Assembly: GCF_000719095.1 (NCBI RefSeq)
Contig: NZ_JOEH01000048.1
Location: 10,104 to 74,103, forward strand
Length of the DNA: 64,000 bases
Reading direction: 5' to 3'
Origin: Streptacidiphilus jeojiense
GTDB taxonomy: Bacteria; Actinomycetota; Actinomycetes; Streptomycetales; Streptomycetaceae
Shown: piece after piece, positions 21,138 through 50,453 of the stretch
Position numbering within the stretch: position 1 is the stretch's first letter
Layout: every line of letters begins with the position of its first letter
The notes under the pieces: model-generated
What the model saw: the letters and a program-made list of their open reading frames with translations, nothing else
Databases searched by the model: none
Told to the model about the DNA's origin: nothing
Translations under genes and position numbers: made by a program

Positions 21138-21214
21138 TGCGGGTTGGCGCAGCGGGTCAGCGCGAAGGCCTCATAAGCCTTAGGTCACGGGTTCGAATCC
21201 CGTACCCGCCACCA
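21138..21214 (+). tRNA. tRNA with CAT anticodon (Met or Ile2)
   Basis: D-stem GCGC/GCGC, anticodon stem AAGGC/GCCTT around loop CTCATAA, T-arm ACGGG-TTCGAAT-CCCGT, and an encoded CCA end. The acceptor TGCGGGT/ACCCGCC is mismatched at pair 1-72, which is initiator-like, but the anticodon stem lacks the three G-C pairs of an initiator. CAT is read as Met, or as Ile if C34 is modified. Confidence 0.85.
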
Positions 21215-21215
21215 A

Positions 21216-21293
21216 GCGTTGAGTGCTGGGACACGAGCGGGGCTGTAACCCCTGCGCCTTCGGGCTTGCGAGGTTCGATTCCTCGGCAGCGCA
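21216..21293 (+). tRNA. tRNA-Tyr(GTA) with reduced D-arm
   Basis: The anticodon stem CGGGG/CCCTG holds loop CTGTAAC (GTA). A 14-base variable arm (GCC-TTCG-GGC) and T-arm CGAGG-TTCGATT-CCTCG follow, with A73. The acceptor GCGTTG/CAGCGC has six pairs including one G-U. Only about 15 bases are left between acceptor and anticodon stem, so the D-arm is unusually short. It starts one base after the CCA of the previous tRNA. No CCA is encoded. Confidence 0.6.
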
Positions 21294-21311
21294 CGGCAAT
21301 TGCATCAACAA

Positions 21312-21384
21312 GGCGTCGTACCCCAACGGCAGAGGGAGCCGGTTCAGGACCGGTCCAGTGTGCGTTCGAATCGCACCGACGCTA
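21312..21384 (+). tRNA. tRNA-Leu(CAG) with a short variable loop
   Basis: The acceptor GGCGTCG/CGACGCT pairs fully (one G-U). Anticodon stem GCCGG/CCGGT holds loop TTCAGGA, anticodon CAG. T-arm GTGCG-TTCGAAT-CGCAC and A73 follow. The variable region is only five bases (CCAGT), whereas normal bacterial leucine tRNAs carry a long arm. Confidence 0.75.
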
Positions 21385-21397
21385 CGCAAAGCAACAA

Positions 21398-21471
21398 GGC
21401 GCTGTGCCCCAACTGGCAGAGGGGGCGGTCTGAGGGACCGTCGGTTGCAGGTTCGACTCCTGTCAGCGCTA
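21398..21471 (+). tRNA. tRNA-Leu(GAG) with a short variable loop
   Basis: The acceptor GGCGCTG/CAGCGCT pairs fully (one G-U). Anticodon stem GCGGT/ACCGT holds CTGAGGG, anticodon GAG. T-arm GCAGG-TTCGACT-CCTGT and A73 follow. It shares its acceptor and D-arm design with the preceding CAG tRNA and again has only a five-base variable region. Confidence 0.75.
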
Positions 21472-21472
21472 C

Positions 21473-21557
<85 letters not shown>

Positions 21558-21561
21558 CGTT

Positions 21562-21644
21562 GGAAGGTCCGGCATCGGCGTGCCAAGCGCTCCAGAAAAG
21601 CGTGGCGGGTGATACCGCTGCGGGTTCAACTCCCGCACCTTCCG
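21562..21644 (+). tRNA. Class II tRNA, apparent Ser(AGA) with C33
   Basis: The acceptor GGAAGGT/ACCTTCC is perfect. D-stem GGCA/TGCC, variable arm GCGG/CCGC, T-arm GCGGG-TTCAACT-CCCGC and G73 fit serine. The only good anticodon stem, GCGCT/AGCGT, leaves loop CCAGAAA, giving anticodon AGA and C instead of the near-universal U at position 33. It may be non-functional or unusually decoded. Confidence 0.6.
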
Positions 21645-21649
21645 CTCGA

Positions 21650-21722
21650 TCCCCGTTGGTGCAATCGGCAGTCACATCGCTCTCTGGAAGCGAAGATCGA
21701 GGTTCGAATCCTCGGCGGGGAG
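21650..21722 (+). tRNA. tRNA-Gln(CTG)
   Basis: The acceptor TCCCCGT/GCGGGGA pairs with one G-U. Anticodon stem TCGCT/AGCGA holds loop CTCTGGA (CTG). The variable loop AGAT, T-arm CGAGG-TTCGAAT-CCTCG and G73 fit glutamine. It is the last tRNA of the array and ends six bases from the stop of a convergent small gene. Confidence 0.88.
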
Positions 21723-21728
21723 CGTGAA

Positions 21729-32091: not shown

Positions 32092-32191
32092 CCGGACCGG
32101 AAGCCCGCCGACGGGACGGGAAGCCCGATAAATCCCAACTGCCCCACGCGATCTCCGTGCTAGCGTTCGACCCGGCTCGAAGGGAGTGAGC

Positions 32192-32923
32192 GTGACCAAG
32201 CTCAATCAGATCATCGCGGTGGAGAAGGGCGTCAAGTCCAAGTCCTTCGCCGACCTCACCCAGGCGCACCACGACGTCCAGAAGACCGCGCTCCTGGCCG
32301 GCATCTCGCGGACCTACCAGCCCAAGGACGAGGAGGGCGACCAGTTCCCGCCCGAGTCGACCCGGGTGCAGGTGAAGGCCGAGGACGTGCTGAGGTCCAC
32401 CGCCACCACGCTGACCCGTCTCTTCGACGTCACCGCGACCAAGGACTGGGCCAACTGCACGGCCAAGGCCGACGTCGTGGTCGACGGCGACGTCATCGTC
32501 GAGGGTGCACCGGTCAGCTATCTGCTGTTCCTGGAGAAGCAGTTGGTGGACCTGCACACCTTCGTGAAGAAACTGCCGGTGCTGGACGCCTCGGAGGCCT
32601 GGTCGCGGGACGAGTCGACGGACTCCTGGCGCACCGAGCCGACCCGGACCATCCGCACCCGCAAGGTGATGCGGAACCACGTCAAGGCCGAGGCCACCGA
32701 GAAGCACCCGGCACAGGTCGAGGTCTACACGGAGGACGTCGCCGTCGGCTACTGGACCACCGTCAAGTTCTCCGGGGCCCTGCCCGCGAAGCGGGTCAAC
32801 GACCTGCTGGAGCGGGTGGAGAAGCTGCAGCAGGCGGTCAAGTACGCCCGGGAGGAGGCCAACGGCGCGGAGGTCAGCGACCGGCGCGTCGGCGGAAAGG
32901 TGTTCGGCTACCTCTTCGGGTAG
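32192..32923 (+). CDS. Conserved actinobacterial protein (resembles the DUF7873 family)
   Basis: The product has 243 residues (TKLNQIIAVEKGVKSKSF start, then SRTYQPKDEEGDQFPPEST and HPAQVEVYTEDVAVGYWTT). No known catalytic motif, signal or membrane helix is visible. I recall this family from actinobacterial chromosomes and actinobacteriophages, under DUF7873; that is memory, not a search. GTG at 32192 with GGGAG five bases upstream is preferred to GTG 32186. It ends just before the reversed tRNA halves, so a link with a mobile element is possible. Confidence 0.75.
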   Translation: MTKLNQIIAVEKGVKSKSFADLTQAHHDVQKTALLAGISRTYQPKDEEGDQFPPESTRVQVKAEDVLRSTATTLTRLFDVTATKDWANCTAKADVVVDGDVIVEGAPVSYLLFLEKQLVDLHTFVKKLPVLDASEAWSRDESTDSWRTEPTRTIRTRKVMRNHVKAEATEKHPAQVEVYTEDVAVGYWTTVKFSGALPAKRVNDLLERVEKLQQAVKYAREEANGAEVSDRRVGGKVFGYLFG

Positions 32924-32931
32924 CCCCACAG

Positions 32932-32953
32932 ACCCCCCGTCCTCGGGCGGGGT
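32932..32953 (+). terminator. GC hairpin after the DUF7873-like gene
   Basis: ACCCC/GGGGT plus CCG/CGG with a TCCT loop, 8 bases after the stop. It uses the G-rich run that could otherwise be mistaken for a tRNA acceptor. Confidence 0.65.
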
Positions 32954-32995
32954 GCGCCAAGGAGCGCAAGCTGAAACTGAAGCTTGTCGTGACCG

Positions 32996-33078
32996 ACGCG
33001 GTCCAGTGGAGGTTCGACTCCTCCCCCCGGCACCAGCGGGCCGGGGTAGCCCAAGCAGGCAGAGGCAGCCGCGATCAA
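32996..33078 (+). tRNA. Candidate permuted tRNA A (3' half, CCA, GCGG, 5' half)
   Basis: The 3' half comes first: variable loop CCAGT (33003-33007), T-arm GGAGG-TTCGACT-CCTCC (33008-33024), acceptor CCCCGGC, A73 and CCA (33033-33035). After a GCGG linker comes the 5' half: acceptor GCCGGGG (33040-33046, perfect complement of CCCCGGC), TA, D-arm with GCC/GGC stem, and anticodon-stem strand GCCGC. GCCGC pairs with GCGGT (32998-33002) just upstream of the variable loop; the pairing extends one more pair. CCAGT matches the Leu(CAG) tRNA of the array. The anticodon loop is not resolved; CAA is possible. Confidence 0.45.
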
Positions 33079-33116
33079 TCTCAGACTCTCGCTCCAGATT
33101 CAGTATTCGCCGCCGA

Positions 33117-33254
33117 GCGCCAGATCGAGCGAGTGCGGACGACCATCGTCGGATGCCGGTTCAAGTCCGGCCCCCTGCTCCAGCGCGCAGGGGTAGTTCA
33201 AAGGCAGAACACGGCGATTTGAGAATGATCCGCAACTCTTCAACGTGCTGGCGC
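33117..33254 (+). tRNA. Candidate permuted tRNA B (3' half, CCA, GCGC, 5' half) with pairing leader and trailer
   Basis: The 3' half holds anticodon-stem strand CGTCG (33147-33151), GAT, T-arm GCCGG-TTCAAGT-CCGGC, acceptor CCCCTGC, T73 and CCA (33180-33182). After GCGC the 5' half has acceptor GCAGGGG (33187-33193, perfect complement), TA, D-arm GTTC-AAAGGCA-GAAC, A26 and CGGCG, which pairs with CGTCG. Leader GAGTGCGGA (33131-33139) pairs with trailer TCCGCAACTC with one bulged base, and GCGCCAG (33117-33123) with CTGGCGC (33248-33254). A TTG anticodon (Gln) would follow if the join is after A37. Confidence 0.45.
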
Positions 33255-33367
33255 CAGCAATTGGGTGGCATCACCAGAGGCCCGGGAGATGGATACCGCT
33301 CCCGGGTCTCGTCACGTCCCCCACCCCGTCTCGTCCCCAACCCGTCGGCCGTCGCACCGGACCGGCC

Positions 33368-34153: not shown

Positions 34154-34819
34154 GTGCGAGGACCCTCCGCGCCCCCGATCGACCGCAACCACCGCCGTCC
34201 GCGACACGTCGGACACCACAACGGCCACACCCGTGCCGCGCCGCCGCCGTTCCCGGAGCCCTCCATCGATCCCCTACCAGCGCCGCGCCGCGCCGGCCGA
34301 TCCCCGGCCGGCGGACCGGCCCGCACCGACAAGCCGCTGCTGTACCTGGACGTCGACGGCGTGCTCAACCCGGTCTGCCCGCGCCCCGAGGGCGACTTCA
34401 CGATCTACCGGATCCAGGGCAGCACGGTGCTGATATCCGCCCGGCACGGTACCTGGCTGCGCGAACTCGCCGAGGTCTACCAGCTCGTCTGGGCCAGCAC
34501 CTGGGAGGCCTACGCCAATCTCTGCATCGCGCCGCTGCTGCAACTGCCCGAGCTGCCGTTCGTACCGGTGGGCCGACGGGCGGGCGGCGACTGGCTGCCG
34601 ATCGTGCGGCACGCCGCGGGCCGGCCCTTCGCCTGGGTCGACGACCTCATCCCGGACACCGTGCTGCGGGACAGCGAGGCCCGGGGCGGGCCGCCGTCCT
34701 TCCGGGTCCGCCCGGGCCCCGGCCCCCCGCTCCCCCCCCCGTGGGCAAAGGTGGGGCCCCCCCCCCCTCCCACGGGGCCTCCGGGCCGTTGTCGGCCTCG
34801 GCCCGACCCGTGTCGGTGA
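34154..34819 (+). CDS. HAD-like hydrolase, both ends uncertain and 3' part damaged
   Basis: LLYLDVDGVLNPV is HAD motif I, VWASTWEAYAN motif II and WVDDLIPD a motif IV-like acidic pair, so the core from about 34331 to 34680 is real. No good start is seen: GTG 34154 opens a Pro/Arg-rich stretch without a Shine-Dalgarno. After DSEARGG the frame turns into Pro-rich nonsense over poly-C runs, so the true C-terminus is missing or displaced. Confidence 0.6.
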   Translation: MRGPSAPPIDRNHRRPRHVGHHNGHTRAAPPPFPEPSIDPLPAPRRAGRSPAGGPARTDKPLLYLDVDGVLNPVCPRPEGDFTIYRIQGSTVLISARHGTWLRELAEVYQLVWASTWEAYANLCIAPLLQLPELPFVPVGRRAGGDWLPIVRHAAGRPFAWVDDLIPDTVLRDSEARGGPPSFRVRPGPGPPLPPPWAKVGPPPPPTGPPGRCRPRPDPCR

Positions 34820-50045: not shown

Positions 50046-50099
50046 GGCGGGAGAGCCTCCTGGTCGGACCCGGTTGGCACGATGGGCGTGCCGGGACGA

Positions 50100-50290
50100 C
50101 CTCCCCCTCTGTCATGGAACCTGAGAGCTTCACCGGCCAGGGACAGCCGGCTTTCACCGTCGGTGTGGACCCTCACGGACGGGCCCCGCTTTCCAGAGTG
50201 ACCTCGCGCGCGCGGTACGGATGCCTGAGAGTTTCCGGGGAGGAGTTGCTCCTTCGGCGCCGCAGAGGTGCACGGTCTCTCCCGCGCGCA
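50100..50290 (-). ncRNA. Tandem glycine riboswitch controlling gcvP
   Basis: Read on the minus strand, aptamer 1 (about 50290-50215) has GGGAGAGACC, GCCGAAGGAGCAA and GAAACTCTCAGGC. Aptamer 2 (about 50205-50100) has CACTCTGGA, GACGGTGAAAGCC, GTGAAGCTCTCAGG and GACAGAGGGGGAGG. These are the conserved boxes of gcvT-type glycine aptamers. It ends about 55 bases before the gcvP start, whose AGGAGG lies at 50055-50060. Confidence 0.93.
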
Positions 50291-50453
50291 CTCGACCGGT
50301 CGCCGTCAGCCTATCAGCGTGATCCCCGGGTGCATCGAATGGAGCAGTGACACACCCGTAACGGCGGTAGGCATTCGACAAATCGATCTTTATGCCTTTT
50401 CGTATGAGTTGATCGCATATGTCATCTTTCCGCCGCGAGGAGTGGACGCGCCC

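Follow-up and report, generated by a model that had tools for sequence, protein, structure and literature searches.

In the genome of the actinobacterium Streptacidiphilus jeojiense, parts of two tRNA-like bodies lie one behind the other in an order in which the 3′ half precedes the 5′ half, which raises the question of what kind of product such a locus encodes. Circularly permuted tRNA genes exist in red and green algae and in archaea, and the initial annotation of the window, i.e., the whole stretch of 64,000 nt of DNA analysed here, had read the region as two tandem candidates for such genes, possibly matured through circular precursors, with decay or chance as a fallback. We consider it probable that the locus instead encodes a two-headed tRNA-mimic RNA of ~350 nt that works together with a protein of the family DUF7873 and represents a Ro60-independent analogue of Y ribonucleoproteins (RNPs) in actinobacteria and phages. 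No description of the two-headed RNA was found in the open-licence subset of PMC, in which 0 papers name DUF7873.

Two Permuted Modules Downstream of a DUF7873 Gene

All sequence elements listed by the initial annotation are present on the forward strand, where positions 32996–33254 contain two tandem modules, A and B, each of which is built of a T-arm, an acceptor 3′ strand, a linker, an acceptor 5′ strand and a D-arm. Upstream on the same strand lies the gene of a 245-aa DUF7873 (PF25283) protein (32186–32923), the predicted protein partner, which matches the Pfam model with an E-value of 1.1e-118 and 395.8 bits (gathering score 27). Just past its stop codon the sequence contains the hairpin CCCCCGTCCTCGGGCGGGG (32934–32952, forward strand), which differs among relatives. 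Beyond it we predict one non-coding RNA of ~350 nt (about 32953–33310), in which two lollipops resembling Y RNAs are followed by a terminal hairpin. A lollipop would consist of a long basal stem bearing a tRNA-shaped head with a D-arm, a T-arm and an acceptor stem that ends in a linker loop, and it is this head that would give rise to the permuted order.

Folding with the heads forced places the 5′ strand of basal stem A at 32953–33007 (all features on the forward strand), including ARNYUN hexads at 32968–32985 and the anticodon-like strand GCGGT at 32998–33002. It is followed by T-arm A (GGAGG TTCGACT CCTCC; 33008–33024), by acceptor stem A (33025–33046), in which CCCCGGC (33025–33031) and GCCGGGG (33040–33046) enclose the linker ACCAGCGG (33032–33039), by D-arm A with GG in its loop (33049–33066), and by the 3′ strand of basal stem A (33068–33113), which comprises GCCGC (33068–33072) as well as hexads and a conserved stretch (33077–33094) and is retained where head A is lost. 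In module B, the 5′ strand of the basal stem (33117–33154) is formed by GCGCCAG (33117–33123), the loop ATCGA, GAGTGCGGA (33131–33139) and ATCGTCG (33145–33151), after which come T-arm B (GCCGG TTCAAGT CCGGC; 33155–33171), acceptor stem B (33172–33193) with CCCCTGC (33172–33178), the linker TCCAGCGC (33179–33186) and GCAGGGG (33187–33193), and D-arm B, again with GG in the loop (33196–33210). The 3′ strand of basal stem B (33212–33254) includes CGGCGAT (33212–33218), TCCGCAACTC (33229–33238), the internal loop TTCAACG (33239–33245) and CTGGCGC (33248–33254). The linker between the acceptor strands measures 8 nt in each unit, and the T-loops of the two units are 147 nt apart.

Conservation and Covariation of the Modules

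A motif scanner for the permuted order is not decisive by itself because shuffled windows also give matches, with an average of 1.48 and a maximum of 4 per 64-kb window when both strands of 60 dinucleotide shuffles were scanned; a further 60 shuffles yielded only 1 match with a score of at least 15, and the real units score 15 and 16. Decisive for the reality of the modules is their conservation. Used as a DNA query, a 321-nt region found matches in 28 of 41 related genomes. To judge covariation, 53 bacterial RNAs were aligned blind to structure, and the structure was projected onto the alignment from the window sequence; the RNAs are 53 of 54 representatives from 113 bacterial loci, with L014, which is without the A head, omitted, and 8 of the 53 are without complete acceptor columns in A. 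Pairing holds in 92.8% of the cells of this alignment, and changes on both sides occur in 44 of the 59 pairs. Sliding the partners by 1–3 columns left 42.4–51.0% of the cells paired and 12–22 double-change pairs, a control that somewhat favours the projected structure as this was taken from one aligned sequence; the double-sided changes are independent of that. Shuffled controls gave a mean of 27.8 double-change pairs and reached 44 in 0 of 500 cases. Decay or chance, the fallback of the initial annotation, is thereby excluded.

The covariation signal is carried by both acceptor stems, both T-stems, D-stem B and the basal stems of B. The complementary 7-bp acceptor strands that had been seen in the window hold throughout the alignment, with 99.4% of cells paired and double changes in 4 of 7 pairs in A, and 100% paired with 7 of 7 pairs covarying in B. 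T-arm A is paired in 99.1% of cells (double changes in 2 of 5 pairs) and T-arm B in 100% (4 of 5 pairs covary), while D-arm A has three invariant pairs, present in 100% of cells, and D-arm B is paired in 95.3% (3 of 4 pairs covary). The leader and trailer pairings proposed earlier fared differently in the two units: those of B are borne out, with 8 of 9 and 6 of 7 pairs covarying and 94.7% and 88.7% of cells paired, whereas GGAGCG/CGCTCC of A is paired in 91.5% of cells and nearly invariant, with a double change in 1 of 6 pairs. Most of the pairings across the permuted order are confirmed; the anticodon-like stem of A is weak (70.1% of cells over four pairs, 38.0% for the fifth).

Inheritance of RNA and DUF7873 as a Cassette

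Among the 41 related genomes, RNA and DUF7873 are both present in 28 and both absent from 13 (Fisher p 5.7e-11, uncorrected for kinship), although the RNA was found by the DNA query only and DUF7873 by a separate search with the Pfam model. Each of the 30 loci retrieved through the DNA query, which represent 29 places (three weaker matches contributed no locus), has a DUF7873 relative. In the opposite direction, we scanned the best 80 of at least 574 DUF7873 relatives from named genomes, all of Streptacidiphilus, Kitasatospora or Streptomyces, and all 80 have at least one module within 1200 nt downstream; two modules occur in 70 of them and one in 10. In viral contigs (best 80 of 127), modules were detected within this distance in 71 (two in 42, one in 29) and none in the other 9. 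The scanner gave few matches in the controls, with 0/80 upstream, 2/80 antisense and 0/80 in shuffled sequence for the bacterial loci and 3/80, 2/80 and 0/80, respectively, for the viral loci. T-loops of two-module loci are 142–189 nt apart, and the first detected T-loop lies 88–248 nt past the DUF7873 stop codon on the same strand in the 80 bacterial loci. Five neighbour genes of the window are retained in a single one of these loci, the near-identical one of S. carbonis, while DUF7873 is kept in 80/80; judged by these positions, gene and RNA therefore travel together as a two-part cassette. Inherited in this manner, the RNA most likely forms a ribonucleoprotein with DUF7873, which would probably bind to the basal stems with their conserved internal loops.

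DUF7873 itself is a large family, with at least 7274 protein clusters at E ≤ 0.001 for the window query, and the nearest named relative among the matches listed is the protein of S. carbonis (L062), which is 99% identical. Searches against PHROGs, NCBIfam and PADLOC assigned no family, and the sequence gave a single match among solved structures (E 1.1). From the protein alignment L180 was excluded due to a stop inside its translation. A structure model (pLDDT 93.8, pTM 0.71) combines long helices with long beta strands, and its comparison with structures revealed no clear relative and no clear match to an RNA-binding fold. Ro60 has the fold of a HEAT ring with a vWA domain; it is not among the structural matches shown for the model, which covers the matches listed and is uninformative on Ro60 likeness.

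Other features of the window surround the cassette. An array of seven tRNA genes (Met, Tyr, Leu, Leu, Ser, Ser, Gln) at 21138–21723, ~10.5 kb upstream of DUF7873, comprises seven ordinary tRNAs according to ARAGORN and five according to Rfam. An ORF at 34154–34819, ~0.9 kb downstream, weakly matches HAD_SAK_2, a domain that takes its name from RNA repair proteins, and stands beside the cassette only in S. carbonis among the 80 bacterial loci. Tandem glycine riboswitch aptamers are found at 50099–50294 on the reverse strand.

Architecture of the Predicted RNA

The architecture was studied with 134 distinct two-module RNAs, from which the duplicate loci L030, L053, L142 and L143 and identical units had been removed; since these loci were by construction selected for two scanner-found modules, head pairing here would be a circular argument and was not counted as evidence. 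Folds with the heads forced, calculated with no shuffled control, suggest two tandem basal stems, with a median of 24 expected pairs between leader and trailer of A and of 20 between leader B and tail; cross terms are smaller, the largest being leader with tail (median 5.6). In the internal loop of basal stem B, ATCGA is found in 40 of the 53 aligned bacterial RNAs, opposite to TTAAACG in 28 or TCAAGCG in 11, and TTAAACG occurs in the tail of 85/134 RNAs. A terminal hairpin with a 12-bp stem and a GGNTA loop (33277–33310, forward strand) follows in 117/134 RNAs compared to 9/134 shuffled tails and may form the 3′ terminus of the RNA. Linkers between the acceptor strands vary in length from 4 to 59 nt, and those of at least 16 nt often fold back on themselves (at least 4 pairs in 46/67; mean z −1.7 against shuffles). 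The 5′ acceptor strand exists in 35 variants in A and 56 in B.

Head A can be missing. In all 10 one-module bacterial loci among the 80, both A flanks are kept, 58–72 nt apart as measured by anchors, and the shorter stretch in place of the head is, by eye, a plain hairpin in several of them. Loss of the head with intact flanks fits a head on a stem, not a tRNA gene.

The ARNYUN hexads lie on both strands of basal stem A and are retained from phages to Streptomyces; at least two consecutive repeats are found in 116/134 leaders and 124/134 trailers of A, compared to 1/134 each in shuffled sequence. Offset by one, hexads can pair mutually (A-U, R-Y, N-N, Y-R, U-A, N-N), and in the folds the mean probability that a hexad nucleotide of the leader pairs with the 3′ side of A is 0.53. 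Alternatively, the repeats could encode a short peptide, such as a K-L-K-L-like beta strand, in a tmRNA-like manner, as their third positions vary, their triplets read as polar and hydrophobic codons, and 77/116 leader repeats have an in-frame upstream start codon. The remaining 39/116, however, have none, the frame relative to the DUF7873 stop codon is random (41, 40 and 35), and the first leader triplet among the 53 RNAs is AAG in 49, AGA in 3 and AGG in 1 and never CGN even though the genomes are GC-rich, which indicates a nucleotide rather than an amino-acid constraint. We regard a coding function of the hexads as highly improbable.

Relation to YrlA and Ro60

The bacterial Y RNA YrlA is modified by TruB and DusA. 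Its paired ends are described as forming a basal stem that carries D, T and acceptor arms, and the basal stem is reported to bind Ro60/Rsr and the tRNA-mimic head to contact PNPase (PMC8394870). The order, for which the initial annotation was not aware of a bacterial case, thus has a bacterial precedent in YrlA. In Salmonella, the RNAs of the Y RNP operon lie downstream of the protein gene in the order rsr-yrlBA-rtcBA (PMC7790460). The heads analysed here likewise combine a T-arm, a capped acceptor stem and a D-arm in this permuted order and stand on a basal stem whose strands pair. Of the Rfam families, that of YrlA (RF02553) scores best on both units, with 32.1 bits (E 3.4e-5) for B and 21.7 bits (E 0.034) for A, neither reaching its gathering score of 69. 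This model found units in 7 of 9 further DUF7873 loci (25.9–37.1 bits; no match in L051 and L059), and in 7 of the 8 loci with the Ro60 domain TROVE that were scanned within the phylum (30.5–56.2 bits), again under 69. The score alone proves little because it also reaches 40.2 bits on tandem ordinary tRNA-Ala genes and, in L057, 25.7 bits at a site outside the units.

The likeness to YrlA therefore consists of the permuted head, the basal stem of paired ends and the position of the RNA beside the gene of the presumed protein. By contrast, two heads are united here in one predicted RNA, which has ATCGA opposite TTAAACG, hexad repeats and a terminal GGNTA hairpin, the neighbouring gene encodes DUF7873 and not a TROVE protein, and scores with RF02553 remain at 22–37 bits versus the gathering score of 69. 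As far as sequence and predicted folding tell, the head is of the YrlA kind and the remainder differs; the RNA is likely a variant of the bacterial Y RNA kind that stands outside the YrlA family by Rfam threshold and by Ro60 linkage.

A TROVE gene was not matched in the genome of the window, nor in a third of the DUF7873 carriers (9 of 28, some of them draft genomes). It is present in 19/28 carriers and 4/13 non-carriers (p 0.043; 41 genomes, kinship uncorrected), and this weak association makes some tie of the cassette to Ro60 biology possible. In G012, a genome of the same genus, a stretch of ~5 kb (L230, 1984–6449) contains in succession a permuted unit of the Ro60-linked type, recognised by the scanner alone, a TROVE gene and the DUF7873 cassette, with the TROVE gene ~2.4 kb upstream of the cassette. 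Four TROVE loci from genomes of the Streptomyces family (L035, L037, L038 and L040) show two permuted units ~230–250 nt apart with other flanking stems and thus a second kind of tandem arrangement.

Alternative Explanations

Are the modules nevertheless tRNA genes? If they were two genuine circularly permuted ones, cuts in the linker and on the anticodon side and circularisation by a ligase, e.g., RtcB, would yield decoding tRNAs. The 3′ half before the 5′ half with complementary acceptor strands, the 7-bp acceptor stems and the intact T- and D-arms speak for this, as do an RtcB ligase in the genome, linker ends under partial constraint (the second position is commonly C, and a C with G or A after it is common near the end), an invariant U near the junction of B (column 580, 53/53, four columns beyond column 576), and ARAGORN, which on circularised pieces with introns allowed proposes tRNA-Val for A and tRNA-Ser for B. 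This mode of ARAGORN, however, yields many inconsistent anticodons and was not relied upon; its linear scan and Rfam at gathering score report neither unit as a tRNA, and the covariance model RF00005 gives only 19.7 bits. The one tRNA that the linear ARAGORN scan does call here, tRNA-Phe at 32946–33035, is a reading that runs across unit A and was rejected. Rejoining the halves under an assumed 5-bp anticodon stem does not, in most RNAs, produce the expected 7-nt anticodon loop with U33: this nucleotide, already questioned for A, is found in 6 of the 45 bacterial RNAs with an A head, and B has it in 13/53. In B the equivalents of positions 33 and 37 form a covarying pair (columns 458–576: GC 27, AU 10, GU 3, other 10). 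Moreover, the flanking stems are conserved beyond the needs of a tRNA, by covariation in B and as sequence in A, head A is dispensable, acceptor strands vary widely, and long linkers fold back as described above. NCCA follows the acceptor in 49/134 (A) and 29/134 (B) two-module RNAs, which by itself says little, since CCA is not encoded in many actinobacterial tRNA genes. The proposed maturation into decoding tRNAs thus finds no support, and we judge it very unlikely. Half order and linker between the acceptor strands are shared with the permuted tRNA genes of algae and archaea, while an unconserved anticodon loop, conserved flanks and a dispensable head A set the modules apart. A permuted tRNA-like domain in a bacterial RNA is also known from two-piece tmRNA, from which the present RNA differs by its two tRNA-like heads and by the lack of a detected tag-coding part; the sole match of a tmRNA model over a DUF7873-linked unit has 24 bits (L013), under the threshold of 47. 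Given RtcB in the genome and the invariant U near the B junction, cleavage and ligation of the RNA may nonetheless occur.

The modules might instead act in cis as the 3′ UTR of DUF7873, as a site of RNase P/Z processing or of feedback binding that controls the mRNA end, and their position on the DUF7873 strand shortly past the stop codon speaks for this. Yet a processing signal would hardly need two modules whose conserved stems are distinct, together with hexads and a terminal hairpin, and the RNAs of the Salmonella Y RNP likewise follow a protein gene (PMC7790460), which leaves this a less likely explanation than a separate RNA. A further explanation holds that ordinary tandem tRNA genes, or their decay, feign the order by the 3′ half of one being followed by the 5′ half of the next. 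Two tandem tRNA-Ala genes of this genome give exactly such a match, and ARAGORN can join the 5′ strand of A with the 3′ strand of B as an intron-containing tRNA-Arg. These cross-combinations, however, pair with at most 1 mismatch in 26/134 RNAs (5′ A with 3′ B) and 21/134 (5′ B with 3′ A), whereas in the structure-blind alignment the partners of the permuted reading covary and are paired in 99.4% (A) and 100% (B) of cells, which refutes the explanation and leaves it a negligible probability. The tRNA-Ala genes in question (L228, ~1481–1653; G000:C4:304017–304156) are the site of the false YrlA match of 40.2 bits and of a false permuted unit. A match of the Twister-sister ribozyme over unit B (26.5 bits, gathering score 34) was dropped, as it overlaps the covarying head.

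Distribution in Bacteria and Phages

Among 296 genomes sampled evenly from the phylum, DUF7873 occurs in 6, all of the window's own family, TROVE in 8 and both in four. Protein searches with DUF7873 also return Micromonospora, Polymorphospora, Actinocrinis, Actinoallomurus and Spirillospora, and they yield 73 phage records with the window query and 79 with a distant query. Of 12 loci fetched from named phages, 10 have a module within 500 nt downstream of DUF7873: two modules are found in Arthrobacter phage Mimi, Rhodococcus phage NiceHouse, Gordonia phage Phendrix, Pseudanabaena phage Pam2 and two Klebsiella jumbo phages, and one in Gordonia phage Ziko, Vibrio phage D517 and two Rhizobium phages, while none was detected near DUF7873 in the Microcoleus and Prevotella Lak phages (L060, L225). 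Further single scanner matches away from the cassette in L056, L057 and L060 look spurious. Mimi, NiceHouse, Phendrix and one Rhizobium phage carry the cassette amid tRNA genes. In Klebsiella phage FBKp24, an annotated suppressor tRNA (TTA) overlaps the T-arm of the second module (L226, 3518–3597) and resembles a linear misreading.

Proposed Function and Implications

We infer that the locus is transcribed as one RNA that binds DUF7873 and acts on tRNA metabolism or in a conflict that targets tRNAs. The heads would be seen by tRNA-handling enzymes and serve as decoy or as tether, in analogy to YrlA with Ro60 and PNPase, and tRNA mimicry together with the phage tRNA arrays makes such a role the most likely function on present analysis. 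We propose tentatively, at slightly less than even odds, that this extends to a Ro60-independent class of Y-type RNPs that is spread by phages and whose paired mimics are decoys for tRNA-cleaving or tethers for RNA-processing enzymes.

The locus teaches caution, as tRNA-like halves in permuted order do not necessarily indicate a permuted tRNA gene when they are met in a bacterial genome. If the proposed two-headed RNA and its partnership with DUF7873 are correct, a large and unexplained protein family would gain an RNA partner, Y-type RNAs that mimic tRNA would not be tied to Ro60, and a second protein would be at hand for testing what bacterial Y RNAs do. A role in tRNA conflict, if true, would explain why the cassette lies inside the tRNA arrays of several phages, and its presence in these arrays makes the purpose of tRNA mimics in phages directly testable.
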